From the NCBI GenBank assembly GCA_033439255.1, contig CM065884.1, positions 434,001 to 498,000 on the forward strand: DNA of 64,000 nt. The letters run 5' to 3'. This document shows positions 2,263 through 52,713 of the stretch, piece after piece. This stretch comes from Hericium rajendrae (taxonomy: Eukaryota; Basidiomycota; Agaricomycetes; Russulales; Hericiaceae). A program made the position numbers and the translations under genes. The notes below the pieces were generated by a model. That model had not been told where the DNA came from and did no database searches. It saw only the letters and a program-made list of their open reading frames with translations. Position 1 is the first letter of the stretch. Every line of letters starts with the position of its first letter.

Positions 2263-5200
2263 ATGTTCGGCGGCAAAAAGTCTTCCCGAAAGAAACTTTG
2301 CAAGTGTCATTCTCATTGCTTGACATACGATGCTTCCACAGCCACTTTCAAGGGCGAAGGGCGGTTGATATCCCGGTCTCTTCACCACCTACACCAAAAG
2401 GATGATAAAGCCAAATATCAGCAGACTGCAGAATCTCTACACGATCAAATTGGCCCAGAGGTGACGTACTTTGATTGTTCTACATGTATAGGTGCTGATC
2501 GCCAAGTCAGATCGTGGATGAGACTGCGGAGGCGGCCTCGAATCCGCAGCCAATTCGTCCTGCCTCGCCGGTAGCTGGCGGATCCCACACCCAGCCTGGC
2601 CAGACCACAGCAACGGCATCGAATTTTGTGCAACAGATAAAGTTCTTCCAAGAAGAAGTCCACGTACTCTCGACGTGGCTGAATCTGTCATGCAAACTGG
2701 AATTTGTCCATGATCCTGTAGACAACGGCCTGTACAAGTCCATGGATGCAGAGCGTCTTGGCGATCCGAATACAGGTCCCCATTCCCTCAAGCGAGGCTC
2801 CGCGGTCAATACTAGTTTCTTGCAGAACGAACATCGGCTTTGCGAGATTTTGGACGCTGTGAGGTCGATGAGGGATTGCGACGGCCGCGAGGAGTTGGAA
2901 GATGAGCTCTACCACGCACTCTTGGCGCTCGATTGGCAGAAACAGCTGGAATGGTCGAGACAGAGGTCCCTTCCGCGGGGTAAATGGGTTCTGGATACGG
3001 GTATGGGCCTACTTTATGTTCTACCATTGCCTTGACATAATGCATGGTTCATTCAGGTGTCTTTTCTCGGAGACAGGGCCATCAAATCCAACGCTTATCG
3101 CGACATTCATAACTGTCCTCACCATGCATATTCTCCTTCACCTCACCCGTCGTGCAACGACTGTTCTCCTTGCTGGGATGGTGCATCTTTCGATCCTCCG
3201 CGGATCTATGACTGCTCGTCAACCATGTCCCCAAAGATCCTCGCACTGTTGTCTCAAAGTATCGGCTGGATCCTGTAACTCGCATTTACGTCTCATGTCC
3301 GGCATGCTTTCGCCTTTATCCGTATTCGACAGACCAGATGCCAACGATTCCTGACAACTGTACACATCGCCGTACGCCTGGGTGCAAGCCATGTAATGTT
3401 CCATTGTGGAGAAGCCTTAATGTTGCCGGCAAGACGCACAAACTTCCTCGACGAAAGTACCTGCATCAAAGCATGAAGCACTGGGTCGGTCGGCTTCTAT
3501 CTAGGCCCGGAATTGAAGATCTTTTGGACAAGCCAATTGATAAGGACCGCCTAAAGAAGGGCGGAATGCATGACATCTGGGACGCGCCCGTCTTTTGGAC
3601 TTTGCGGGATAAAGAAGGCCAGCATTTTCTGCCAAGTACGAAGGGCGAAGGTCGATTGATTTTCAGTCTGGCTGTCGACAGCTTCAATCCCTTTCATATG
3701 AAGGAAGCCAAGCAGACGGTATCCTCCACAGGAATATTTATGGTCCTGCATAATTTTCCGCCTCATCTCCGTTACCGCTCTGAAAACATGTTCCTGCTCA
3801 GCGTCATTCCAGGCCCGGATAAGCCGTCTATAGACGATATCAATCACGCCCTGGACCTCCTTGTCGATGACTTATTGGAGTTCTGGGAGCCCGGAATTCT
3901 GTTGACGCGGACTGCGAGATGTCCTTCTGGCAGGAAAGTCAAAGCCATGGTTGTTCCCCTCGTCTCGGATATGCTGGCAGCTAGACAAGTTGCTGGTTTA
4001 GGATCCGCAACATCGAAATTCTTCTGTACATGCTGCCGACTGCCGATCCAAGATATCGAGGAGTTGGATAAGCGGACTTGGCCTGTTCGGGACTTCAGTG
4101 AAGATCTACGCTATTCAGAAATGTGGAGGGATGCCAAGGACCGTATTGAACAAGAGAAGCTTTTCAGGACGTACGGCGTGCGTTGGTCGCCTCTGAACCG
4201 TCTGCCGTATTGGGATGCCGTCCGCTACGTCGACATAGATGCCATGCATGCTGGCGACCTAGGGTTGTTTCAGACGCACTGTCGGCAGGTATGGGGCATC
4301 AATGTCTCCGTCGAAGGTGAAGAGACGGCTTTGCACGATGTGAAGGTTTCCCCACGGCCTCTGCATGCAGTTTTAGTTGGATGGGCGAAGATTATCCAGG
4401 ACAACCCGACGAACTTATCGAAAATCTTGGCGGAGGCGACATGTACACATGCGATCCTTTGGCATATCTGTAATGACAACGATATTCGTCGAGCAGGTTC
4501 CAAGAAGCAGCTCATAAAAAATATTGTGCAGTGGGTGAGTTCTGCGGCTCTATGTTCAAATTCGAAGTACTCAACATTTCGATATCAGCGCCAGGAAGTC
4601 GACGACAGAGAAGTCACAGTTGTTTATTCCACAGAACCGTCGGATGATGGTCCGGAGCAGATATCCGACCCCCTGGAGACAGACGCCTCAATGACAAGTG
4701 GCTCCGACGCTTATCAGACAGATGCCTCAATGGAGGAAGCCTCAAGGGGGGATGCCTTGATGGGGGACGCCTCGATGGAGGACACATCTGCGGTTGGGAG
4801 CTCAGACGATCTCATATCCACGGATTCAACCAGCAATGTGGAAGATTCCGGAGATCTCGGAGCACGCACGGAGAAGGAGAATGCTCTTGTGACAAAAGGC
4901 ACTGTGTGGCTTGAGAAGCGTCACAAAGACTCGACGATACTGGGCTTGAAGCAGCGAATACTGAGGATGCTTTGCGCCGATAGAAGTCTTTCTATCGAAG
5001 GAAAAAAGGCAGAACTATTGGAAAGACTCAGGGCATGGGTATGTTATCGAGCCTTAGTATCCACGATTCCGAAGCTAAGATGAGGTTAGACCGAATCGCA
5101 CGTCGATCCACCTACCGAATCCAAACCGGCCCCGAAGGACGGGCAGAGCGGTCATGTCCTCGGACGTAGCATCATGGCCAAGGTTCATCGGGAGATGGAG

Positions 5201-26611: not shown

Positions 26612-26759
26612 TCGTCGCATTTTCTTCCCAGTGTGCTCTTTTTTCCCCTCGCAGACGCGCCACATTATGACCGCTAGTTGGCTCTCAGTTTGTTTGTGTC
26701 GTTTGCACGCTCCACCTGCCTACCGCCTACTACTTTCGTGATCTGCTCCAACCGGCGTA

Positions 26760-26935
26760 GCGTTGATATCAACGGGCTTGAACGACGCATATGCCTAGGC
26801 TCTGCGACCTGACTTCGTTGACCCTTGTGATACCTGGTAATGTGAAGCGCTAATGGGGTATCGGACTACTCGAATTGCAGTCGGCACAAGGAGGAGCTCG
26901 ATGAGGAGGACGAGTTGAAGAACAATCAATGGCCG
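26760..26935 (+). pseudogene. Relict of the 215-residue protein gene
   Basis: The phrase order cgacttgacttcg-like, then cctggtaatgtgaagcgc, then tactcgaattgcagtcggca and ggaggagctcgatgaggaggacg follows the intact gene at about 26405-26535 along its whole length. It has many substitutions and small length changes, and no usable frame remains. Same strand as the intact copy and only about 150 bp beyond its stop. Confidence 0.65.
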
Positions 26936-27164
26936 AATAACTATCTTTGCCTTGAGCATAAATTAATGGCTTCGACAAATTCGATACAGGCACTGCATCC
27001 ATTGGTTGAAGGCGTGCTCTAGATGAGGCCGGCTTGATGTTATATCTCGAAAGAGTGAGACGTCGCATCGCTATCATGTCTGGCGCATGCGCATCACTTA
27101 CAGTCAGCTTTCCGAGGACCAGACAGAGTCCTCAAAATGAGTGGCTCCTTCGTTTCGGGGCTCC

Positions 27165-27275
27165 GCCCCACTGTCGATCGCGCCGATCGCTGAGTTCAGA
27201 CGAAAGGCCGCAGAGTCTGTGCAGTGTGCACGACACCTCGACGGGAGAGTGGACAAACGCGAGTGGATCGAGCAG
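27165..27275 (-). pseudogene. Scrap of the C-terminal tail of a seven-pass membrane gene
   Basis: The plus-strand phrase acgacacctcgacgggagag followed by tggacaaacgcg matches the segment at about 37600-37632 of copy B that encodes FVHSPVEMSC. Only this part of the tail remains. It shows that the family once had another copy, or a translocated end, on the left side of the large mobile element. Confidence 0.55.
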
Positions 27276-27585
27276 TCAGTACTAGTCAGTACTAGCAAAT
27301 AGCTTGACAACACGACAGAGCATTCCTTTCATAGCGAGAGCAGGGGAATATGGTACATGATATAAATTAAATCCAAGTCAACAAGTATTGTGATCTACGT
27401 ATGCGAAAATCCATGGCACAATGGAAATACGAAAGTAGGAGATAGTCGGAAGAAGAATGCAAGCGCCACGAACTGAGAAATGGCGGGGTAGTAAGCATGT
27501 GGCACGACTGAAAAATGGTTGGCTAGTAAGCATGTGGCACGTCTGCGAGTGAGGACAGCAGCGTACTGGAAGGACAGTGCAATGA
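27276..27585. other. Intergenic, AT-leaning
   Basis: Contains a short direct repeat (tggctagtaagcatgtggca near 27520 and a closely similar phrase near 27487). No gene seen. Confidence 0.35.
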
Positions 27586-27975
27586 TCAAGACAGTGAGTC
27601 GTAATACCACATCGGCGGTTTCTCGATCTTCAGCTCCTTCTTGATGATCTCGACGACGTCCTTCTCGTCCTCAGGTATGAGTGCCTCATCATACCAGGTG
27701 TAATTCGAATAGAGTCCAACGCCCCATTCGTGCGTCATATCACAGGGCATCACGAGCTTGAGTGACCACAGCTCGCATAGGTCCCTGAGACGCGACATGC
27801 CTTGCTTGACAGCCATGGAGATCCGCATGGCATATTTCTCATTCGGGACATCGATGAGTGGAATGCCGTGCCGCTCGTTGAAGTCGAGCATCTGCTGCGT
27901 GTCGAAGGGCAGCGCCCAATATAGCATCGGCGGGTTATTGTAGGGATTTTCGGGGAGAACAAGGAGCTTCGAAGA
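27586..27975 (-). pseudogene. 5'-truncated paralogue of the 215-residue protein gene, cut at the mobile element
   Basis: The frame reads KLLVLPENPYNNPPMLYWAL, DTQQMLDFNERHGIPLIDVP, AVKQGMSRLRDLCELW and LKIEKPPMWYYDSLS to the stop. It aligns end to end with the C-terminal 60 percent of the intact gene on the other strand at 25.9-26.6 kb. The coding match stops within a few bases of 27,975, exactly where the terminal repeat of the large element starts. The missing N-terminal part is not found beyond the element's right end at 37.2 kb. So the insertion was followed by loss, or hit an already partial copy. Confidence 0.75.
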
Positions 27976-27977
27976 TA

Positions 27978-28180
27978 TGGCGGTTCGTTTGCACAAAAAA
28001 TCAGCAGCGAGCAAATACATGGACGCGAGCAAACTTTTTCCGCGTGAGCAAACTTTCAGCGTGCGAGCAAAGATTTCAACGCGCGAGCAAAGATTTCAAC
28101 GCGCGAACATATTCTTCAAGAGCGAACAAATATTCCTGCGAGAGCGAGCAAATACTCCTCAGTAGGAGAGCGAACAAAGA
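27978..28180 (+). repeat. Left subterminal iterons, nine copies of gcgagcaaa at ~20-bp spacing
   Basis: Units of g(c/t)ga(g/a)ca(a/t)a begin at 28007, 28025, 28044, 28063, 28083, 28103, 28122, 28144 and 28170. Spacing is 18-22 bp except the last (26), close to two helical turns, so the sites would face the same side of the DNA. Between them AT-rich trinucleotide tails (cttt, attt) recur. This looks like an array of transposase binding sites. Confidence 0.75.
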
Positions 28181-29555
28181 TACCTTCATATTCGAAGTCC
28201 GAGCATAACTTACCTTGAAGAAACATCCTTTGAAGTTAAGTTCAGGAGCTACAATTGAACCTAACAAACTTCTATTACGATATATAAAGACTATACACTA
28301 CATAGTTCGATCCAAACGGCTGGTTACTTTAAATAAGGAAGCCACACAGCCGTCCCATCCTGCACGCTGGCCGCCACGGGATCTCGAGCCCCTACCTCGC
28401 CCGCCTGCCGCTGCGCTGTCGCTCCTCGCCCCGTTGTGCTCGTCTCCGCTCTTCGTTGCGCACGCGTGCCGTCGCTCGTCGCTGCGCCTGCCACCGTTCC
28501 TCGCCCCACGCGCCCGCCTCCACTCCCCACCATGCACGCCCGCCGCACCTCCCCGCGCGGACCCGCGCCACCGCGCCGTCGCTCCTCGGTCATGCGCCCG
28601 CCTCAGCTCCTCACCGCGCCCGCGCGCCCGCCTCCGCTCGAGCTGGACCCACCGCTCGTCGCTGCGCCCGCCCGCCATCGCTCGTCGCTGCGCCCGCGCC
28701 CGCGGCTCCTCGCCACATGCGCGCGCCGCACCTCCCCACGTGCCCGCCGCCGTGCCGTCGCTCCTCACCGCGCACGCGCACGCCTCCGCTTGTCGCTGCG
28801 CACGCGCATCGGCGCTCGTCACTGCGTGCCTGCCTCCGTTCGTCGCTGTGCACGCGCACTGCTCCCCGCCACGCGCCCGCCCCCCACCGCGCGCCCGGGC
28901 TCGCTCACCGCCGCGCGCCCGTGCCTGCACATCGCTGTGTCCGCTCGCTGCCACGCACGTGCCTTCTCACCGCCGCGGGTCCGCTGGCTCGCCGCCCTGG
29001 CTCTCCGCTGCGTGCTCGTACCTGCGTGCCCATGGTCGTACCCCGCCACGCACCCGCTCTCCACCCCGCATGCTCGCTGCAGCGTGCTCACTCACTCACC
29101 GTCACGGGCTCGTATACTGCTGCGTGTCCGCTCACCATCGTGCGCCCTCTGCCACCCACTCGCTTCGCGCCTCGGCCCGCTCTTGCGATTGTGCGATTGT
29201 GGTGCGTGGCTCGTTGCACAGCGGCGACAGCGCACAGCGTTGCTTGGCTGACCTAGGCGCTGCTGCACGTCACGTCACGTTGCAGGCGTGGGAGCGAGTT
29301 TGTCGGGGCAGGTGCATGGCATCGGGGAGGGAGTCGGAAGTGGGCAATTGCGTGATGGCGCGGGGCAGCCGTACGGGCAGGGACGGGGAAGGGGGGAAGG
29401 TGCAGGAGGGTGACGCGCGTGTCACAGTTCGAGATTCCCGAAACGGAAATTCGGGAATTGCCGAATGGCGTGGCTTGAAGGCCGAGCTCGCCGAAGCTTG
29501 AGGAGCAGCAGCATCGAGCAAGCTTTTGGAGGCATCTCATACTATAATTTATTGA
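28090..29555 (+). repeat. Left inverted arm, GC-rich degenerate modules
   Basis: From about 28090 to 28350 the arm is ordinary in composition. From 28370 to 29250 it is an extremely C-rich, CpG-rich array of degenerate modules around cgcccgcctccgct and cgtcgctgcgc. Long frames stay open in several registers on both strands simply because stop codons are rare in such sequence; their Arg/Ala/Pro-rich translations are not genes. The inner end (29400-29555) returns to ordinary composition and crosses into the AT-rich core. Confidence 0.8.
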
Positions 29556-32500
29556 TGATGATACTACATGATGATTGTTAAACATGTCTATTCCAAAGCA
29601 TTTATGAGGTTAAAAACCAGTCCTCCTTTTGCTTTTAAAACAGCCTTTAATCTATTTAGCATGCTCTTGATATGGCTATCAACAACTTCTGTGGTGAGCA
29701 CACCCCATGCAGTATATACAGCAGCTTTCAGCTGCTCGAGGATATTTAGAGGATGTAGAAGAGCACATATAGATCTTGAGATTATACCAAAGAGGCTCTA
29801 TAGGATTGAGATCTGGAGAAGATGATAGATAAGAGAAGTACTAGATTAAATGACTGGTAAGCTAAAGATTTGTTGATTTGCTGGCATGTGATGATGCATT
29901 GTCCTGCTAAAACTTCATATAATCCCTTAGCTTGTCCATCTCCATATAAAAATGATAAACTATAGATGTTGAAGATCTAATAATAAATGTGCAATGTTCT
30001 CAGTGCCTGGAATAAGTCACTGATATTATTCAGGCTGTACCTAATAATAAACATGCAGCATTCTGAGTACAATATATGAGTATAGTGTTTGTCAATCAAA
30101 GAAGCTTGATGGTTCATTTGAGTATCTTAAATAAGTTACTGAGAGGAGCTGATCATGTCCTGCATCAATAACACCAGCACAAGGGGCTGAGAGAACTGTA
30201 CAGTATATTATGTAATCAGTCTAAAGCTAAGCCCATAATCTAATCAATAGCAGATGCATTAGATAAGATAAGAAGAAATAGCACTATATTATGCTTTGGT
30301 TGAATGACCTAAACATAACAAGAAATCCTTCAAAAAGAGCTCCAGGATCTATTCTTGATACTGCTTGGAGTTTATTCCTCCTTCCTTCTCATCAAGGTAC
30401 TCCAGTGCAACTAATAGGTTCTTTTGCCCCTGCATGATGCACCCTCACACTATAACATGCAGGGAGGACAGCTTGAAGGTTGAGACAACACAATCCTCCT
30501 GAAGAACTTCATTCAAATACTATATAATATACACTCAGCTAGAGGTGTCACTGATGTAAATGTAGCACTCATCTAACCAAATAATGTATCTTTAATCTTT
30601 CTCTGTCATCTGCCAACTATTCTGAGCTCACCTTATATGAGTCTTCTTCTGCTTTCCATAAAGATAGGGCATCTTTTTTGTAACACACTAGTAATGGCCT
30701 TTCTCATTAAAAATTTTTCAGATAGTGCTTGAGCTGATTTTTAGCTTAACTGACTTTTCAATGATAGCAAATGGTTCTTGATGGTAATTTCAAGCTTCTT
30801 GCACTATCTAACACTTGATATGCTCTATGACCTTCAGTAAACAACTGCTTCATGATAAGGAATGAGTAAATCTGATTATTTTGTACTTGTGAAAGAGATG
30901 CTAGGCAGTCAGCAAGAGGATGTTTTCTTGATTAACTATTTTGAAGATAGTGGTATCAGATTTTATAGCACTAATAAAGTGATTTTTTCTCAGGATACCA
31001 TGCTGGGTATAATGAGCTCTTATAAGTGACATACAAAGAGGTATGATAAAATTGCAAGTGATAAATGTGACATAGTATGATATTAGCTTATAACATATTG
31101 CATGTTGCTTATATAGTTATCATAAATTTTGATAATCACAAGTATGTGCTACAAGATATTGTAACATACTATAAGATAGTATAACATATCTTAAAATATT
31201 ATAGAATGTCTCAGAATATCATAAAATATTATAAAATATGATACATATGCTGCAAGATATTATAGCATGCTGTACAATATAATAGTATATCATGAGATAG
31301 TATGACATATCTTAAAATATTATAGAATGCCTTAAGATATTATAAGATGTCTCAGAATATCATAAAATATTATATGATATGATATATGTGCTAAAATATA
31401 TGGTACATATGCCTCTGTGTTCACACAGAGAGGAGCATTTGAGTTGTATTCAGTCATCTGTGCATTCCATTTTAAGCTAAATAACCTCCAAATGCTGATC
31501 ACTCAATATTTTCAGATGGACAGTGGCTTATATTAGAGAATCACATACATGTAATGCTGCATGATGTGACAGCATCACAGAGCAATATAAAATCAAAAAA
31601 AAAGGTACATATGCTCAGAGATATAATAGAGAACTTGAATTGAGATGAGGTAACTTACTATAGCAACATGTTACAAGATATTAAATTATATACTGACCAA
31701 CTTATAGCAATATGTAGAGAATTGCAGAATTGTAGCTTACAACTAAAATTTCTAAATAAGTAAGACATGAAAAAAAAATGATTTTATGCATATGACTATA
31801 ATTATACTCAGAAGTTGGTCAAGGAGAACTCTGCAATCTAGTATATAATGATGTCAAGCTTACTTAGTATGATTATATGAAATTATAATAGTGAATTATA
31901 TGAAAGAAAATAGAAAGAGAGAGAAAACATTGAACATAACTTGTAACACCACTCAGCAGTTGCCAAAAACAGTGCCACAATAAATTTTGAACTAAAATTT
32001 TAAAAGCAATAAATTCAACCAAATTATTAGCAAAAAGATAAGGAGTAAGTACTTCCTTGTGGAGATTGTATTTTGCTATCTGACACAGCAAGCTATTGCA
32101 AAAGAATATAGACAAATGTAATAAGATTAGATAACTCTTATAAGGAAATTGTTATCTACTACCAAAAGGTGACTACTAGACAAAGCACTTATATAGTGTC
32201 TACACCTCATATATGCATATATATTGGCCTTAAAAGATATCATTAGGTTTGTTATTCCTTGCCAATTTTCTTGTATTGATCCTTTTATTTAGTAACAAGG
32301 CCATTTCTACCAGTCCTAAACTTTGCCATTCAAATACTTTTGGTGCATCAGGTCTAACTTTTCAAAAATTTGCATTCTTTTTGCTCTTACTGACTACTTG
32401 TGCTATCCAATCTTGCTCTGTCCACTAGTCTGACTAGGTTTTCTATGAATAACTTGTAGGATCTCTATGCTGATAGCTCTTAGCTTTTGTATCATGGTTA

Positions 32501-33712
32501 CAATATGGGTCATCTAGGCAATCCATATGATGCTCCTCAAGCATGCAAGTCTGAGTCAAAGCATAATAGTTGGTGAGTGCTGCATATTGCTCAATACTGA
32601 TATGCAGCTTTATGATCTAAATGTCTATGGCCTAAAAATTATACTTGATTGAACTACCAATCTAGCCTATATACAGTCAGCAATGCCAACAGTGAGCACA
32701 GTGTTTAGTATTGAGTATTACTTAAATCTTACTCAGCAAGAATATATATCTCTATGAAGCATAGATATGTACATAAAGTATTTTAGCTATGATGACTGAG
32801 TATAATATCATTTCAAATAAATTTGAAATTTTATTGAATCAACAGTATAGAAAGAAGCAATAAACTGAAAAATGAGAATATAATATTACAACCAGAATAA
32901 TTATGCCAGGTCCAGGGATAAGACAAGTGTACCAGATCAATTAACTTTGAGAACTTTTCTGATAGATTGTGAGCTGATTTTGTTGTTATAGAATTGTTAT
33001 ATATCTGGATAACAAATGCTATAGAGCTCAGTATTATGTAAGTTTTGCATGCTTTGCATTGCTCTACAATGCATTCTATTCTACACACTTTTTCACTGAT
33101 GACTCTATAAGTAAAGCTAGAGATTGGCATTTATATAATAAATGTACTTGTGAAGTTTTATATAATTTGAGTTCAGATTGGCTTCTCAATGTCTGACACT
33201 TGTGACAAGTAAGCATAGATTGTGCAGTGTTTGTTTTTAATACTGGGATGCATGAGCTCAATTTGAGCTCTTAGGCATACTAAATACTCTTTTTTAAGCT
33301 TGATTTTGTCATCTACAGTTCTTCATATGTCTATTGCTTTGTTATAAGATTGTATGCTATATACTGTAGTAAATTATATTTCTTTCATGCTTTTCAGTGG
33401 GCTCTTATATTATCCAGATCTTTACAATTTTCCTACATTCTAGTGTATAATTGTTATTTTTGATGTAAATTAAGCCTCAAGCCCTTGAATCAAGGTAAAA
33501 CAAATTGTGGCTTTGCAATCATGTGTAGAATAGTAGTACCAAGCATTGAATATAACTCAATTTGTCAAATTCACAAGACTGAGTACTTGATTGTACAAAA
33601 CCTTAGGAGAACAGCCTAATTTGTCTGTATCTTTGTCATTCTACATTCAAATTTGCTCTAAATCTCTCATCACTTCTCACTTACATGTTGAGCTAAAGTA
33701 GTAGTGTCATTG
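29556..33712. repeat. AT-rich, CpG-free core of the large element
   Basis: 4,157 bp in which I find essentially one CpG (in ctcgag near 29737), while the arms on both sides are saturated with CpG. Besides the transposase relict, 31120-31400 holds imperfect repeats of about 120 bp built on taaaatattatagaatg(t/c) and tcagaatatcataaaatatt phrases. From 31400 to 33700 I recognise no domain on either strand. Confidence 0.75.
29585..30880 (-). pseudogene. Decayed Tc1/mariner-type DDE transposase
   Basis: Reading the minus strand in pieces gives the catalytic landmarks in order: IIWLDECYIYISDT (first Asp, near 30551-30590), GCIMQGQKN and LLVALEYLDEKEGG (30400-30450), QDNASSHA (second Asp, near 29905), SSPDLNPIEPLWYNLK (third acidic residue, 29776-29826) and a C-terminal AVLKAKGGLVFNLINA (about 29590-29640). 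These are hallmarks of basidiomycete Tc1-like transposases. Numerous in-frame stops occur, many where TGG or CGA/CAG codons would be expected, fitting C-to-T decay. It cannot make a full protein. Confidence 0.85.
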
Positions 33713-35614
33713 TCAATAAATTATAGTATGAAATGCCTTCAAAAGCTTGCTCGATGCTGCTGCTCCTCAAGCTTCGGCAAGCTCGGCCTTCAAGCCACAC
33801 CATTCGGCAATTCCCGAATTTCCGTTTCGGGAATCTCGAACTGTGACACGCGCGTCACCCTCCTGCATAGTACGGCCCTACGGGCATTACCTGTCCCCGT
33901 TTTTAAGGCAGGCATTCCTTTTCATGCGACGTTGAATCATATACTTAGGATTGTTCAAATAAAGAACTATCAATAGTATTAGATGGTTTCTTCCAATTGG
34001 TCTGCCCGATTCAGCAGTGGGATGCACCGCGAGTGTTCATAGAACGGGTACAGAACAACATCATGTTTTGATCATCGCTACGGTTTCATTTTCTTCATTT
34101 TTCACCGTCCGGAAAGGTTTGCGAAGAAGACCTTCGCTTGCATGTCAACATGGCAAAGCAACCAGATAATTAAAGTGCCTGTAGCTGCAAGACGGTGCGC
34201 GTTCACTGTTAGCGGGGACTGAGTGTCTCAGTCAGGCGGAACACTTCCAAAATGGGACAACGTCAAAAGTTTCCATATAAGGCAGTAACTTTCGAGGGAA
34301 GACCTGTCCCTTACGGGTACAGGAACCTTCCCCCCTTCCCCGTCCCTGCCCGTACGGCCACCCCGCGCCATCACGCCATTGCCCACTTCCGACTCCCCCT
34401 ATGATGCCATGCACCTGCCCCGACAAACTTGCTCTCATGCCCGCAACGTGACGTGGCGCGCACCAGCGCTAAGGTCGGCCAAGCAACGCTGTGCGCTGTG
34501 CAACGAGCCACGCACTCAACCGCACAACCGCAAGAGCGGGCCGAGGCGCGGAGCGAGCGCGAGGCAGAGGGCGTGCGATGGTGAGCGGACGCGCAGCAGT
34601 TCACGAGCCCGTGACGGTGAGTGAGTGAGCACGCTGCAGAGAGCATGCGGGGTGGAGAGCGGGTGCGTGGCGGGGTACGACCACGGGCACGCAGGTACGA
34701 GCACGCAGCGGAGAGCCAGGGCGGCGAGCCAGCGAGCCCGCGGCAGTGAGCAGGCACGGGCGCGGCAGCGAGCGGACGTGGCAGTGTGCGGGCACGGGCG
34801 CGCGGCGGTGAGCGAGCCCAGGCATGGGGTGAGGGGCGGGCGCGTGGCGCAGGGTGGGGGGCGGGCGCGTGGTGCGGAGCAGTGCTGCGCATGCGCAGCG
34901 ACGAAAGGAGGCAGGCGCGCGCAGTGATGAGCACCGATGCGCATGCGCAGCGACGAGCGGAGGCGCGCGCGTGTGCGCGGTGAGGAGCGACGGCGCGGCG
35001 GCGCGCGCGTGGGGAGGTGCGGCGCGCGCATGTGGCGAGGAGCGGCGGGGGCGGGCGCAACGACGAGCGATGGCGGGCAGGCGCAGCGACGAGCGACTGC
35101 GCGTTTGCGCAGCGAAGAGCGGAGGCGGACACGTGGGGTGAGGAGCGATGGCGTGGCAGCGGGCGGCGGGGAGTGGAGGCGGGCGCGTGGGGCGAGGAAT
35201 GGTGGCAGGCACGCGCAGCGACGAGCAACGGCGCGCGTGCGCAACGAAGAGCGGAGGCGAGTACAACGGGGCGAGGAGCGACGGTGCGGCGGCAGGTGGG
35301 CGGGGTAGGGGTTCGAGATGCCGTGGCGGCCAGCGTGCAGGGGCTGTATGGCTTCCTTAACTAAAGTAACCAGCCGTTTAGGTTGAACTATGTAGTGTAT
35401 AGTCTTAACATATTATAATAAAAGTTTGTTAGGTTCAATTGTAGCTCCTGAAGTTGACTTCAAAGGATGACCCTTCAAGGTAAGTGATGCTCGGACTTCG
35501 AATATGAGGGTATCTTTGTTCGCTCTCCTACTGAGGAGTATTTGCTCGCTCTCGCAGAAATATTTGTTCGCTCTTGAAGAATATGTTCGCGCGTCGAAAT
35601 TTGCTCGCGCATTG
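33713..35614 (-). repeat. Right inverted arm, inner part
   Basis: Reverse complement of the left arm: aatttattga/caataaatta at the inner edge, then the gtgacacgcgcgtcaccc segment, the purine-rich complement of the GC-rich modules (34330-35300), and cctactgaggagtatttgct near the outer end. Identity to the left arm looks high but not perfect, with module-number differences, so the arms have not been fully homogenised. Confidence 0.8.
33868..34325. repeat. 458-bp segment present only in the right arm
   Basis: The left arm reads directly from tgcaggagggtgac into ggaagg (junction 29400/29401). In the right arm the equivalent point is split by 458 bp, starting tagtacggccctacggg and ending cttacgggtacaggaa. 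The composition is ordinary. Its ends show only weak inverted similarity and no clear target duplication, so it may be a small insertion here or a deletion from the left arm. Confidence 0.6.
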
Positions 35615-37100
35615 CACTGGAGAAACCCAAAAATAGCCGCCGCCGTTATTTGGTAGAAACGAGTCCTTTCGGCGCGATATCCGCCAAATTCCTTCCACCT
35701 CCGTATCGGCGCCCTTTTCGCCAGATTTCAGCTTGCGGCAGCGCGTGATGCAAATTATCAAGTCGTGACGCGCGTCCGCGCGTCGCGTCTTGTTTTTGTC
35801 TTGTTCTCCGATTTCTTTCTAAGTCGTACTTCTCCCTCTTACCACGATGTCGCTCGGCGTCGAGTGCGCTACCTCCCGCTTTCCCTCGTGTACTGACAGC
35901 TCTCTGTTGTTCCCTTCATAAATTCCCAGGATCGACTCACCTTCTCGCCGCCATCGGCCATTGCGCCCGTATCATAGGATGTTTGTCGTTTAGATGTCCG
36001 TTAGTCTCGCTCTCATATTTAACTGGATCTGACTATGATTCACTGTCTTCAGCTGCTTGGAAGACCTCAATGAAGATATTGCACCCTTGACTTGGCGAAG
36101 AGCTCGGATATTAGCAGTCGTGGTTGAGTTCTGGATTGTGCAAGCTGTGAGGATTTGTGGTTCCGGTGAGTTTCGCATGGCCTTTTAAGCGTGTTGCGAC
36201 CTTTTTTTAATCCAACCTCATTGTCCTATGTGACCTTCATGTCGATTCTCATGTTTACTGCCCTTCGCAGTGCATATATGCGCATATAGCCAGGTCTATA
36301 TGTTTTCTGCCCTGCACTGCAATGCCTCCCTCTGCGCAACAGGTACGAGTGATGATATTGTACTGATCTGATCACTCACATATACAGAGGTATGTCCTCG
36401 ACTTTGTAGAATGATGAGCGCACAAGCGCGGCACGATAATCTAATGTCTGGGAGTATAAACGTCCACACGCTAATTATTGAGTGAGTCGAGTCTCTTACG
36501 CGCCCACTCCATGGTGCTCATGATAATTGCTTAGCTATGCCGTCGTTGCGCCGTCGTGGAAGTTCTGCAAGACTCAGTGAGACGAGGGCGAGTGGGTCCA
36601 AAATATCTGCCCGTTATGGTGTACAGCGGGAAGTGAGATATCGGTAAGCGCTTTTGAGCCATGGTCCCGCGGTAGTCCAGCATAGTCATTTCGGATGAAT
36701 GCTGGCTTGAATACGAGCGGCCAGTATCCCGATTGGCTTGCTCGAGACCAGGGTTGGGTTGGGGGCTCGAATAATTGCTCAGGGATAGATAGATACTGTA
36801 TTACGGTTGTAGCACACAGTGGATGTATAATAGGTCTACGTTCAAGCGAAATGAATGGGTATACAAATGGATTTTAGACAAGTACAGTGGCCCGAGGGGA
36901 AGGGGGGAATGCGGATCTCTAATGGTGCTGGCGGTTTCGCTGTGGAAATCGAGCGAAAAGGTGGCTGTTATGAAGCCAAAAGGATTACTAACGGCCAAAT
37001 AACCGCTGGCGGCGATTTTGTGGATATCTCGCCGAAATTGAGCTGAAACGACTCGTTTCCGCCGAATAACAGCGGAAGATATTTCTGAGTTTCTCCAGTG
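35615..37100. mobile_element. Nested CACTA-like element, 1,486 bp, 3-bp TSD
   Basis: Starts CACTGGAGAAAC and ends GTTTCTCCAGTG, flanked by TTG on both sides (35612-35614 and 37101-37103). Inverted similarity continues inward for roughly 100 bp in patches (cgttatttgg, gaaacgagtc, gatatc on both ends). A 3-bp duplication and CACT(A/G) termini are typical of the CACTA superfamily. No transposase frame lies inside, so it is non-autonomous. Deleting it with one TTG joins two parts of the right arm into a sequence that mirrors 28025-28110 of the left arm. Confidence 0.85.
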
Positions 37101-37103
37101 TTG

Positions 37104-37203
37104 AAAACTTTGCTCGCGCGCCGAAACTTTGCTCGCGCGGAAAAAGTTTGCTCGCGCGCCAAAAGTTCGCTCGCTCCTGATTTTTTGTGCAAACTAACCG
37201 CCA
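37104..37203 (-). repeat. Right terminal repeat with iterons
   Basis: Reverse complement of the left end: three to four tttgctcgcgc units spaced about 19-20 bp, a ggaaaaagtttgctcgcg phrase identical in order to the left side, and the terminus ttttttgtgcaaactaaccg followed by cca. With the unit before the nested element it completes the array seen at the left end. Confidence 0.8.
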
Positions 37204-37442
37204 TACCATTCCATTCAAGATTCCATTCCCGCGAGTGCGAAAACTCTCTAATTATGCGTCAGGCTCCCATCCATCCGACCTGGAAGGCGGGCAGGCGATC
37301 CGAGCACGATAAAAATGCGTGAAGTACTGGAGAAACGAACGCGTATGAACAAAACATATCAACCACAACACTTCGAACTCGGAACTTTCCACCAAATCTA
37401 CAGCGACAAAGTACATTTCTAGCCGCGTAGCTGTTGGCGTCG
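37204..37442. other. Spacer between the mobile element and copy B
   Basis: No gene. A ccattcaagattccattcc phrase lies directly beyond the TA. I looked here for the missing 5' part of the truncated gene at 27.6-28.0 kb and did not find it. Confidence 0.5.
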
Positions 37443-38879
37443 TCACTCGTATCCAGCTTTCCAAGGGCGGCTCACTTCAATGATGACCGCATCTCCAGAC
37501 AGAGATTTCTCAGATCGAATGTCTCCTGATATCCGATGCTCCCCAGCATTGTCCGGTGCGCTCATCGCTGGGGCCAGATCAAAAGTCGCAGGATCCGTGC
37601 ACGACATCTCTACGGGAGAGTGGACAAAAGCGATCGGGGTTTCGTACTTGAAATTGCGGTCGCAGTGCGTTTTCTGCAGGGACGCAAGGACGACAATGAT
37701 CATGGGATATATACCCTGTCGCAGCGATCATGATCATAATGCATTTGGGCAGAATGCGATCGGGAGGACCTACCGAAACTTGGGCTAGAAGGGTACCCAT
37801 AAAAAAGGCCCCGACGGGTGCGCCGCCGAAAGTGCACACGGCGGTGGTGATCTTGTTTGATACACTGTCAGCCTCCACTTCAGAGGAAAGATAGATGCTT
37901 ACCAGGAAGACGCAATACACACTACCTGATTCGACCATCAAAACGAGAACCTTCTCGACGCATGAGCGCTTGGTCCCGTTACCGAAGTGACGCTTGATAT
38001 CATGCCGGTGTTTCCTGGTCCGTTCGCCACCTGAGCTCGCCGAACAGATGGAAATAAAGAAGCCGAACGCACCAGGCTTTCCATCCAACGAGCGATGTCG
38101 CGTATAGATTGATTATGGCCGCCAGCACGCAGAAAAGCGGCAGGCCGCTAAACCGCCAATCGTACTTGCTGCACAGATCACTCTGTGGTCGGCCAAACAA
38201 TGCCGTACCTATAATGTAGACTACCGCAATTGCTGCATATGGAGCCCCAATTAAAATACTCCTTAGTCCGCAGAGGAGTACTCACCGATGTTACCAACGA
38301 AGAGGACGAAGGGGATAAGCAAAACACGTAAGTTCCTACCCCATACTAGCCACGCTCTCCAGACCACGATCCCATCGCTCAGAATGAACTGGCACAACGG
38401 ACATTGGTGAGAAGGGAATGCATCACTGGAGTTGCCTCACAAACATTGACCACGGGAAGATAGTCGGCCGCTACCAATACGAAACCAGCCATATGCGGAG
38501 ACATTGTGGTCGATTCTAGTTCTGCCCACACAAAAATCGATATGGCCACCCATTGGCAGGTTGAGATGGCATACGTGACGATGGTTCCAGTGAACAACGC
38601 CATGTCCCGTTTCGAATCCAGGCCCCTGCACCTACATCCCAGTGTCAATAACACTGCCGGGATCCATTATCATACACATGGACTCACAGAAGGATGTACA
38701 TCGACATGGCGAAGATGATCGTGAGGATACCTGAGAATGCCACAACTTTCAACTGGGCCGGTCCCATGGATACATAAAGCCTATCGCGCACCGTACGCAA
38801 GCGAGCCGATTGCGACGGCAAGAAACAGCTCGGTGATGATCCCGGGGAAAGACTCAATGCAGGTTGAAGCGTTCAACAT
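37443..38879 (-). CDS. Seven-pass membrane protein (copy B)
   Basis: Start ATG is the complement of 38877-38879: MLNASTCIESFPGIITELFL. An intron of about 60 nt splits TM1 (AIGSLAYG then ILTIIFAMSMYILL), as in copies C and E-G. TM2 reads VTYAISTCQWVAISIFVW, followed by MAGFVLVAADYLPVVNV. Then come NLYATSLVGWKAW (end of TM5), KVLVLMVESGSVYCVFLV (TM6) and IIVVLASLQKTHCDRNF (TM7 and tail signature). The tail runs about 80 residues to a stop at 37443. The Ser/Asp-rich tail ends with a W-K-A motif, the family end signature. It appears intact, though exon limits in the middle (38200-38380) are less certain. It sits immediately outside the large mobile element. Confidence 0.7.
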
Positions 38880-40113: not shown

Positions 40114-41583
40114 TCACTCGTGCTCAGCTTTCCTCATGCGATCCACGTCGGCGACTAGATCTTCCACAGACAGCGATTTCCGCGAACCAGCCCCCGATCG
40201 GACTCGGCTCTCCTCGCGACTGCCAGGCGTGCTGATCGCTGCGGTCAGATCGAAGACTCCGCGACTTGTGGATGACACGTCCACTCGCGGAGAGGCGAAC
40301 GCGACGGATGTTTCGTACGCGAAGGTGCGGTCGCAGTGTGTCATCTGCAAGGAAGCCAGCACAATGATGATGGTTGGGTATATGCCCTAATACAGCCGTC
40401 AGATACGTCACTACAGCGACAGGCAGTGTCGGGATATTCTGCTTACGGTAATTTGGGTCAGAATAGGATGTATGAACAGCGCGGCAAGGAGTTTCCCCGT
40501 CCAGAGGCACGTGGTGGCTGTAGCCTGGTTGAGAGCCGCTGTGAGCGATGACCGACAGGACGGCATGAAAGCCTTACGAGGATTACGCAGTATATGCTGC
40601 CGGACTCTACCAACAATATGAGGAGCTTTTCGACACGCGTCCTGCGATTGCCGTCGCCCATGTAACGCTTGATGTTTCGCCGGTAGCTCCTACCACGCCC
40701 CCATCACGAATGTAGTGAGTATCTTTAAAGTTAGCGGATTGGCGACGTACCAGGCTTTCACGGCCACAAGTGACGTCGCGTACATGTTCGTTGCAAGGGC
40801 GAGCATATAGGATATAGGCAACCCACCAAATCGTACGTCGCGGAGTACGCACAACACGGCGAGACCGTCTCGCTCAACATTCCACGCTGATGCCACAATA
40901 TAGACCGTGAGAGTGGCTATACGCGGAAGGTTTTCGATTTTCAGCCCAAGGGTATCGTTACAACATCTCAAATATCGAAAGACGCACCAAAGCTTCCCAC
41001 GAACGACGCTACAGGGACAAGGAAAACCAACATCGACCGTTCCCAGACAAGCCACGCCCTCCAAACGACTATAGCATCGCCAAGCACAAACTACGGAATG
41101 CATGAACGTTTAGCCAGGATGAGGTGTAGAACGAGCTGACGGACGTTGACGACTGGTAGAAAGTCAACCGCCATAACCACAAGACCCTCCAAGTGCGGAG
41201 ACAGTGTTGCTAATTTCAGTTTTTGCCAGGCGAAGATAGATAAGCCGATCCAATGGACTGTGGAGACAGTATACATAACAATAATGGTCGTGAATACCAC
41301 TATGTTTGAAATCGACTTGAGGCCTTTGCATCTGCGACACAATGAGGATGCCACGAAGAACGACTTTATAGTATTGCGGACTTACAGAAGGATGTACATC
41401 GACATTGCAAAGACAGTCGTGAAGACACCTGAATGTGTTACAGTTGTGAGCGAGACTGAGCCCACATACACAGGTTGATTGCGCACCGTAAAGAAGGGTG
41501 CCGATCGCGAAGGAGAAAAACAGCGGCCATGGGTCTTCGAGCCCAGGGAAAATTTCGAATGGACATGTTGTAGCGCTCGACAT
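40114..41583 (-). CDS. Seven-pass membrane protein (copy C)
   Basis: Start ATG is the complement of 41581-41583: MSSATTCPFEIFPGLEDPWP, then FFSFAIGTLLYG, a 58-nt intron, and VFTTVFAMSMYILL-like sequence. Next come KGLKSISNIVVFTTIIVMYT (TM2), LVVMAVDFLPVVNV (TM3), LAVYIVASAWNVERDGLAVL (after TM4), LPISYMLALATNMYATSLVA and VKAW (TM5), LILLVESGSIYCVILV (TM6), and LASLQMTHCDRTFAYETSVA into an 80-residue Ser-rich tail ending RKAEHE. The N-terminus is strikingly close to copy E on the other strand 8 kb away (both have LEDPWPLFFSFAI). Intact as far as I can read. Confidence 0.75.
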
Positions 41584-41964
41584 CAGTCCAATATACGAGT
41601 GAGTACTGTTACTGTTAAGGTGCGATCAGCGAGTTGGGCCGTGAGAGGTCCTCGAAGACTAATGGGCCAGGGCAATTATCGGCTGCTTTTATGCCTCTTT
41701 GCCCTCGGTCGGGCTGTGCACTATCAGCCCCCCGCACCAGCGAATCGGTCCATCACAAGAAGCAGATAGCAATTAAGCAAAGCTCCAACGCCTGGTCAAA
41801 AACAAGACAAATGAACCGTCTTCCCACCTGTGGTTAGTTCAATGGCAGGATCTGGAATCATATCTGCCATCGTTGCCTTGATACGACCCCGCCACGAAAT
41901 GTCATGGATCTGTCATTAGGTCTTAAGAGACATCGCAGAACTATCGATGGCTGTCTTGCATCCG

Positions 41965-50680: not shown

Positions 50681-51243
50681 CGGGCACAATGAAGGATTTA
50701 TAGCTACTCGGCATTACTCGAGATATAACTCCAGGCCTGCAACGTTTCGTGGTCCAGGTAGCTCAGACCTGCTGTGAGGGCGAGACTCGAAGTCTGATGA
50801 CTCGGGCTGAGCGTTCATTCCCCATTCCTCGTCTGCTGTTTCGACTCACCGGGAAATGCGCACCTAGTCTTCGTTGCGACCTTACGTAGAAGATAGTTTC
50901 ATTCTGCGTTTAAGATACGCGCCGAGTATCGTCCCATCTATCAAGATGATGATGATAGATCATGTTTCCAGAGTTATGCTACCGGACTGGCTATGGGCTA
51001 GGTGGGAAGACAGTTCATCGGCATTGGCTGTTCATTGACGTGATATCCATGTTTAGGTATAATCAACGGATGGTGTGTCGGCGTTGGAGCGCAGGGGTTG
51101 ACGATACACAGCATGCCCATATACAAAAAGGCGTGTAAGAAGACAATGATCACCCTGACCCACCAGATATTTCAAGGCCTTTTATAACCCGACTCACTGA
51201 AGTTCAACACATCCCAGCAACGAAGATATCGTAGATTTGACTA
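50681..51243. promoter_or_regulatory. Duplicated upstream DNA of copy F
   Basis: Repeats the order seen at 48950-49245: atctatcaagatgatgatga, ctaggtgggaa(g), (g/c)atatccatgtttagg, gttggcgttgg-like and aagaagac(a/g). Shared spacing to the start codon makes this a candidate common regulatory region. Confidence 0.55.
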
Positions 51244-52713
51244 ATGTCGGATGCTCCCGCATGCACATTCGAGTCTCTTCCTGGGCTCGGAGGCCCGGGT
51301 CCGCTGTTCTTTTCATACGCAATCGGCTCCCTTCTTTATGGTGCGCAATTAACCCTTCTTATCAAGAAATTAGTTCAACTCACCACGATAGCGCTTCCAG
51401 GTAGCTTCACTACCATCTTCGCCGTGACCATGTACATCCTTCTGTGAGTGAATCAGACTGCACCATTGATTTTCGTGGCGTTCTAGTTGTGTCATAGGCG
51501 TAAAGGCCTGAAGTCGATGTCAAACATAGTGGTGTTCACGACGATCATTGTCATGTATACTGTCTCTATGATCTACTGGATAGGCGTAACTATCTTCGCC
51601 TGGCAGATATTGTCACTGAGCAGACTGTCTCCACACCTGGCGGGCTTCATGGTTACTGCAATCGACTTTCTGCCACCCATCAATGTCTGTCAGCCCTGCT
51701 CTAGACGTCTTCCTGGCTAATTTTTACGCCTCTCGCAGTTTATGCTGGGCGACGCAATAGTCGTTTGGAGGGCATGGCTGGTATGGAATCGGAGCATATT
51801 AGCCTTACTCGTCCCCGTAGCGTTGTTTGTTGGGAGCATTGGTGCGTCTTCCGCTATCGCTGGTATCGTACCAATCAACTTATATTGAAGCCCTGCATAC
51901 GTAGCCACTTCAATGGTCTACATCGTCACCTCAGCATGGAACGTTGAACGTGGCGGCATCGGCGTCTTGTGCACGCTGCGCGACTTGCGACTTGGCGGGC
52001 TACCGGTCACCTACACGCTCGCGCTCGCAACTAACGTGTATGCGACGTCGCTTGTGGCCGTGAAAGCCTGGTGAGTGTGCTTCTGTTGAATACGAGATTC
52101 TCATGTTCTCGCGACGGAATTCCGCAGGTGCTACCGGCGAAACGTCAAGCAGCACCTGGGCGCTGGCAATCGGAGGACGCTTGTCGAAGCCATTCTTATT
52201 TTATTAATAGAGTCAGGCAGCGTCTACTGCGCCATTCTCGTAAGTTCTTACGTTTCTCTATTGATCGTCATTCACGGGAGGTCTTGAGCAGGCAGCTGCC
52301 GCTGCATGTGTCTGGTCGGGGAACATGTACGCTTCGTTGTTCATGAACCCTATTCTGGCCCAGATCACGGCAAGCAGCACTTCCTCCGGTGCCGTATGTT
52401 GCTGCGATAACATGTTCCATGATTTTATTAGGGCATATACCCGACTATCATCATCGTTCTGGCTTCTTTCCAGAAGACCCACTGCGACCGCAATTTTACA
52501 TATGGGATGCCTATCGCATTCGCATCTCCGCCATTGGCACGGACGTCTAGGGACGCGGCAACCTTCGATCTGGCCTCAGCGATCAGCACGATCGGGCCGC
52601 GCCGTCCTTCGGCTGATGGTCACTTGCAGACATCTGCAGAAGACGTGGTTATTGACGTGGATCAAGAATGGAAGTCTGACCAGGATATAGCGGGTACAAC
52701 GCCGAGGACTTGA
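51244..52713 (+). CDS. Seven-pass membrane protein (copy F, second of the trio)
   Basis: Start MSDAPACTFESLPGLGGPGP, then FFSYAIGSLLYG, a 60-nt intron, and VFTTIFAVTMYILL-type sequence. Later segments: KGLKSMSNIVVFTTIIVMYT, LGDAIVVWRAWLVWNRSILA, VYIVTSAWNVERGGIGVLCT, LPVTYTLALATNVYATSLVA, RTLVEAILILLIESGSVYC, then GIYPTIIIVLASFQKTHCDR and a Ser/Asp-rich tail ending close to 52713. All junctions keep frame. The period to copy E is 1,998 bp. Confidence 0.8.

Follow-up and report, generated by a model that had tools for sequence, protein, structure and literature searches.

Long inverted arms around a CpG-depleted core in a dispersed foldback-type transposon family of Hericium rajendrae

In the genome of Hericium rajendrae (assembly of 46.8 Mb in 19 contigs), a 9.2-kb segment of contig C7 is enclosed by two long inverted arms with TA outside both ends, and this locus raises the question of what kind of element it is and why its arms and its interior have such different base composition. 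The window analysed here is a stretch of 64,000 nucleotides (C7:434001-498000), in which the element, hereafter copy A, occupies positions 27978-37203. The analyses revealed that this segment is a member of a dispersed family of mobile DNA with inverted arms of ~1.56-1.59 kb, which is of the foldback type by structure and has an unusual plan: a conserved 27-bp end, ~19-bp iterons, an inner GC-rich block and a core without a recognisable gene of its own. We consider it probable that the family is a low-copy nonautonomous foldback-type DNA transposon that is mobilised in trans and uses TA as its insertion site.

The inverted arms of copy A were recovered as three local alignments, pairing 28077-29401 with 34325-35614 (84% over 1361 columns, 1488 bits), 29401-29567 with 33701-33867 (96%), and 27978-28080 with 37100-37203 (87%). 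When the right-arm region (33701-37205) was shuffled 200 times with dinucleotides preserved, the best score was 31 bits. The antidiagonal joining the two arms that an earlier sequence-only reading had predicted is present. That reading had given the arms as 1,578 and 1,544 bp; the inverted arms themselves stood, and the lengths were corrected to 1590 bp on the left (27978-29567) and 1560 bp on the right (33701-33867, 34325-35614 and 37101-37203). On the plus strand, the left arm consists of an outer part with the terminus TGGCGGTTCGTTTGCACAAAAAATC and phased GAGCAAA iterons (27978-28349), a GC-rich (75%) degenerate minisatellite-like block (28350-29250) and an inner part whose final CpG ahead of the core lies at 29515 (29251-29567). 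The core (29568-33700, 4133 bp) has a GC content of 32%, and the right arm follows on the minus strand with its inner part (33701-33867; first CpG past the core at 33752), its middle, comprising the GC-rich block and outer part (34325-35614), and its tip with terminus and iterons (37101-37203). The TA outside both ends, also claimed earlier, adjoins either terminus of copy A (27976-27977 and 37204-37205) and is presumed to be a target duplication.

Two extra segments had been set aside in the right arm, and both are missing from family copy B, described below. The first (33868-34324) has no clear ends and is missing from copy C as well. The second (35615-37100) is probably a nonautonomous CACTA-like element that was recently mobile, because it starts with CACTGGAGAAAC and finishes with GTTTCTCCAGTG, is flanked by TTG on both sides, and has its last 151 bp repeated with 100% identity at C12:2112593 and C2:3231938.

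A search of the whole assembly with the 27-bp end pattern (matching TATGGCGGTT...; up to three mismatches allowed) revealed eight places, seven exact and one with a single mismatch, while the reversed pattern used as a control gave none. These termini belong to both ends of copies A, C (C13:424085-467879, reverse strand) and D (C2:3980179-3995091, an older copy), to the left end of copy B (C13:416902-424080, whose damaged right tip lacks ~29 bp) and to a single end, E, at C12:9372. Fragment F (C13:188.7-190.6k) consists of arm and core pieces without a terminus, and a weak fragment, G (C2:983.5-984.9k), matches the inner arm over 54 bp at 91% and the GC-rich block at 66-67%. Across four contigs, where the flanking DNA differs from copy to copy, similarity stops at identical terminal bases, and all eight termini, at several unrelated loci, have TA next to them. 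Copies B and C are arranged head to head (C13:424080-424083, in L010), with the final ~29 bp of B missing at the junction. The core of A is 97.8% identical to that of B over 4121 columns, and the same CpG-stripped core is common to A, B and C at ~98% identity. Copy C is interrupted by two insertions of 17.2 kb and 19.4 kb, of which the latter is a long terminal repeat (LTR) element with LTRs 99% identical, enclosing a 1-kb direct repeat pair that is also 99% identical; an apparent LTR element, judged from repeated end translations, lies inside an arm of D. The term composite, in the sense of Tn10, was not supported for this family: the 27-bp end occurs at the outer ends only, and an isolated arm bearing both ends was not observed.

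Further analysis of the ends showed that TA adjoins TGGCGG at all eight termini and that A and D, the copies with both flanks, have no duplication longer than TA. In the outer arm, the GAGCAAA motif forms a ~19-bp array whose first unit lies at offset 33 from the T of TA in 8/8 ends. The left-arm offsets are 33, 51, 70, 89 and 109, after which the spacing becomes less regular, and beyond the first unit both number and spacing vary among the eight ends. The paired pattern GAGCAAA-N4-16-CGNGAGCAAA has 32 matches across the assembly; 31 fall within family ends, and the remaining match is at C18. From this arrangement, the arrays may be regarded as putative transposase-binding sites; Galileo is known to have multiple binding sites for its transposase within long repetitive arms (PMC3688188). 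A transposase supplied in trans would bind the iteron arrays and pair both ends, cut at TGGCGG and insert the element at TA.

Several observations weigh against this interpretation. No transposase was linked to the family by six-frame Pfam scans of the A and D cores or by searches with the ends. The 14-bp end matched the eight family ends and one further place only (C1:2112710), and none of the 48 DDE_3 matches in the genome was linked to the family; any of these 48 might nevertheless act on it in trans. The long copies number only four, of which A, B and C are closely related and B and C are neighbours, and the second arm of D is recognisable over its outer ~200 bp only, inward of which lies a GC-rich and CpG-rich block that has no match. 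No empty site of the element was found, as neither the A and D flanks joined with one TA nor the flanks of B, C and E taken singly yielded a continuous match, and TA may be part of the element end. On the left of copy A, a paralog on C1 matches up to the element end (26737-27978, 85% over 1281 columns, with 95.5% in the last 378 bp), whereas its continuation was not found in the right flank; there, only 139 bp (37495-37633) match the C1 stretch, at 73%, and in a portion that comes earlier. Since the C1 similarity ends at the element and does not resume with its continuation on the other side, the two flanks of A may not have belonged together originally. The right end is immediately adjoined by the ~48-bp tail of a dispersed repeat (37206-37253) found at 18 further places. 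A coding-looking frame of 129 amino acids (27589-27975) ends at the left end of the element; it has a 95% paralog on C1 and 36 matches in the genome including itself, 26 of them on C7, and no Pfam match.

In its long, internally repetitive inverted arms the family resembles the Galileo/Foldback-type elements of Drosophila, which have terminal inverted repeats (TIRs) of about 0.3-1.2 kb (longest ~1.26 kb) that are internally repetitive in some subfamilies, many nonautonomous copies, and chimeric copies with non-matching flanks (PMC3573991, PMC3688188). The Hericium family differs in its TA, its erased core and the lack of a linked transposase. The A and D flanks share no 7-bp repeat of the kind left by the P superfamily, to which Galileo belongs, and no Pfam match to a THAP-domain P-type transposase was obtained in the A or D cores, both of which are heavily mutated. 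A search of the literature, partial in its coverage, found no fungal family of the same plan.

Among other assignments, an IS3EU-type element, in which TA would be part of the element and the target duplication 6 bp long, is unlikely. The family end TATGG..CCATA fits the TAYGG..CCRTA of IS3EU in rust fungi, whose TIRs exceed 30 bp and whose target duplications are of 6 bp (PMC12730594). Such a terminal motif, however, fixes few bases, and there is no 6-bp duplication at A (CGAAGA versus CCATTC) or at D (TATCCA versus TAGCCT). No coding copy of an IS3EU transposase was found, the A and D cores yielding only the DDE_3 trace described below in six-frame Pfam scans, and the family offers no transposase for comparison. 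PHISTA, ESTA and PlavakaA of fungi likewise have TA or 2-bp target duplications; the reported ends of PlavakaA are TGT..ACA (PMC12730594), and the family has no transposase by which it could be placed.

The Tc1/mariner superfamily shares with the family the TA at insertion sites, seen at 8/8 ends. Members with long TIRs exist, such as Tc3, Tc4 and Tc5 of C. elegans. The sequence-only reading had implied Tc1/mariner identity through a Tc1-like relict inside copy A, and a six-frame Pfam scan of the core with stops read as X gave one DDE_3 match (E 0.0045, below the curated cut-off). Once a 369-bp insert is set aside, the relict (29567-31144, minus strand) can be aligned at the DNA level with a Tc1-like element on C11 (L026 1394-2713), which is 1.3 kb long, stands alone and has its own TIRs of ~30-55 bp, TA ends and an open frame of 370 residues. 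In copy A, the first ~107 bp of the C11-type element are missing, and with them the left TIR, at the point where the arm starts. No match to the relict was obtained in copy D, and six frames of its core region gave no Pfam match. Judged by sequence comparison, the relict is a passenger, because it is a truncated copy of an element that stands alone at C11 and was not found in D, and the identity drawn from it was not supported. An exceptionally long-armed Tc1/mariner element that carries its own transposase inside is thus very unlikely: its arms would be of ~1.56 kb, the only DDE/D trace in A belongs to a truncated passenger, and none occurs in the D core. The insert is a 369-bp, miniature inverted-repeat transposable element (MITE)-like repeat (29954-30322, plus strand) present in at least seven other copies (C12, C5, C13 twice, C1 twice, C7), and relatives of the C11 element were seen at C10 and C13:1662k. 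For Tc1/mariner, IS3EU and the P superfamily alike, there is a defining feature that the family either lacks or does not demonstrably possess. A single-locus or segmental duplication in place of transposition, which the head-to-head position of B and C could suggest, is refuted by the common terminal bases in differing flanks on four contigs, and its chance is negligible.

Not mentioned in the sequence-only reading, the base composition of the core is the most unusual trait of the element and sets it apart from the arms. It contains 1 CpG (29737) against 108 expected from its composition (Poisson p 2e-45), and its longest CpG-free run of 4,015 bp compares with a next longest of 418 bp in the window. 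CpG observed/expected ratios were 1.06-1.98 in the arm segments, including the outer and inner parts outside the GC-rich block, and 1.05 and 1.10 in the 10-kb flanks. The core of B has 2 CpG against 108 expected, and that of C, which is in two pieces, has CpG-free runs of 2,625 and 1,240 bp. Beside its arm, fragment F holds a homolog of core 33286-33700, which comprises the rightmost 415 bp of the core, and has 15 CpG in the aligned columns. From F to A, CpG was kept at 29/41 sites in the inner arm and at 0/15 in the core (Fisher p 1e-6), while transversions amounted to 4.2% in the inner arm and 4.9% in the core. On the right side, where F is comparable, no more than about 50-80 bp separate the limit of the mutation from the arm/core junction. 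In D, a homologous core stretch of 258 bp has 1 CpG where F has 7, and the inner arm has 29 CpG in columns aligned to A. Of the seven F sites, three are changed identically in A and D, three carry overlapping changes and one has changes on opposite strands; this last site hints weakly that the core may have been erased partly independently in the two copies.

The Tc1-like relict allowed the direction of change to be followed, with the reservation that the C11 copy is not ancestral to it and mutation rates are approximate. Compared with C11, the second part of the relict has 163 transitions and 13 transversions, with 0/43 CpG kept; the first part has 37 transitions and 5 transversions, and neither of the only 2 CpG in C11 was kept there. 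The single CpG of the A core sits where C11 has CA. Over both parts, C-to-T changes from C11 to the relict affected 58/89 CG, 53/159 CC, 51/185 CA and 14/149 CT sites, whereas the reverse comparison gave 13/173 for CA, 3/66 for CC and 7/183 for CT. A directional excess of C-to-T changes over transversions, as mutation resembling repeat-induced point mutation (RIP) requires, is therefore present. RIP-like directional mutation appears to have struck the core and stopped at the arms, since CpG sites were lost from F to A in the core and for the most part kept in the inner arm at similar transversion divergence. The family shares directional C-to-T change in a mobile element with fungal RIP and CpG-biased hypermutation, the latter being reported for the agaricomycete Rhizoctonia solani AG8 (PMC4014442). 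Matches to PF00145, candidates for a RID- or DIM-2-type methyltransferase on which such mutation would depend, occur at five places on four contigs.

Renewal of the arms was considered and rejected: the A/F transversion rates and those between A and D (2.9% in the inner arm, 1.9% and 6.7% in the outer ends, 2.8-3.5% in core pieces) are comparable between arm and core, and the arms do not look younger.

An alternative to active mutation is slow decay, in which a silent core would be methylated at CpG and lose it by deamination while promoter-like or CpG-island-like arms remain unmethylated. CpG is indeed the most affected context, and the arms have lost some CpG too (136/180 kept between the left and right arms of A, 24 having become TG or CA). 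Slow decay is a possible but doubtful account, as no CpG of 43 is left in the second relict part at only 1.6% transversion divergence, and ~33% of CpC and ~28% of CpA were changed as well, with a strong directional excess, at rates that are approximate for the reason given.

Repeat-triggered mutation of the linker, in which arms recognised by their homology would be spared and the unique DNA between them mutated, was also weighed. It would fit the outer arms, which are present in more copies than the core and yet are spared, and the two-ended copies A, B, C and D, which are CpG-poor in the core, as against F, in which one arm is seen and CpG is kept. In Neurospora, DIM-2 acts on intervening sequence (PMC11969663), and its action on single-copy DNA adjacent to repeats has been described. 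Other palindromes in the genome served as a comparison. At C13:424859-429626 (L010), the linker of an inverted repeat has 3 CpG against 35 expected, and the arms 43 and 45 against 85 expected each (0.51-0.53). The palindromes at C3, C5 and C17, however, are about equally CpG-poor in both parts (0.36-0.45 in the arms, 0.39-0.61 in the linkers) and have stretches of ~510-650 bp lacking CpG that fall outside the linkers, and a 580-bp palindrome of 86% self-complementarity (L033, about 2416-2996; C12:1236.7k) is itself CpG-free against 16 expected. Most palindromes compared are thus without contrast between arm and linker, one (C13:424859) fitting and three (C3, C5, C17) not. In addition, F is a fragment whose second arm may have been lost at any time, the second arm of D is mostly unrecognisable, and in repeat-linker-repeat tests in Neurospora RIP k-mers were enriched in the repeats and not in the linker (PMC12543289). 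On this evidence, linker mutation is improbable.

The palindromes in L061, L062 and L063, together with C13:424859-429626, are large, with arms of about 1.7-2.2 kb that are ~90% alike, linkers of 0.6-1.4 kb and partial CpG depletion; the L061-L063 sequences match window positions 31145-31400. Inverted duplications within the window could not be used to assess linker mutation, being too divergent at ~70% identity. One of them, 40228-41598 / 51229-52590, is ~1.4 kb long at 71% identity and is likely a gene family, with no Pfam match in the one frame scanned of 40228-41598. Another transposon gene is indicated in the window by an open frame at 3212-5083 with matches to Transposase_21 (tnp2) and the SAP domain.

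Selection on mobility is one of three readings of the spared arms: copies with mutated arms would be immobile and hence unseen. It would account for the outer ends and not for the ~900 bp of the repetitive block. Simple RIP, which targets repeated DNA itself, predicts the opposite pattern, because the arm ends are present in more copies than the core, and these more-copied ends keep their CpG; the family differs from fungal RIP in that the mutation halts at inverted arms, although the outer parts of these arms are repeated more often than the core.

Taken in order, the events would be as follows. Fragment F suggests that arms and core were joined before the mutation, after which the core would have been erased by C-to-T mutation. 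The dispersal of A, B and C most likely followed, because they share the erased core at ~98%; A would later have received its CACTA-like insertion and C its LTR element. An element with a dead core that moved would be nonautonomous and mobilised in trans, and it could have stayed mobile if the arms alone were needed in cis. That the inverted arms themselves direct or bound RIP-like mutation, with the unique DNA between them stripped of CpG and the arms exempt, is a speculative and rather unlikely extension; it would represent homology-triggered linker mutation outside Neurospora, in a transposon that remains mobile since only the exempt arms are needed in cis. The comparison of F with A and D provides a natural before-and-after view of the limits on a genome-defence mutation in a fungus, and it suggests a possible route by which a mobile element may survive under such a defence, namely by needing only the arms that are spared.

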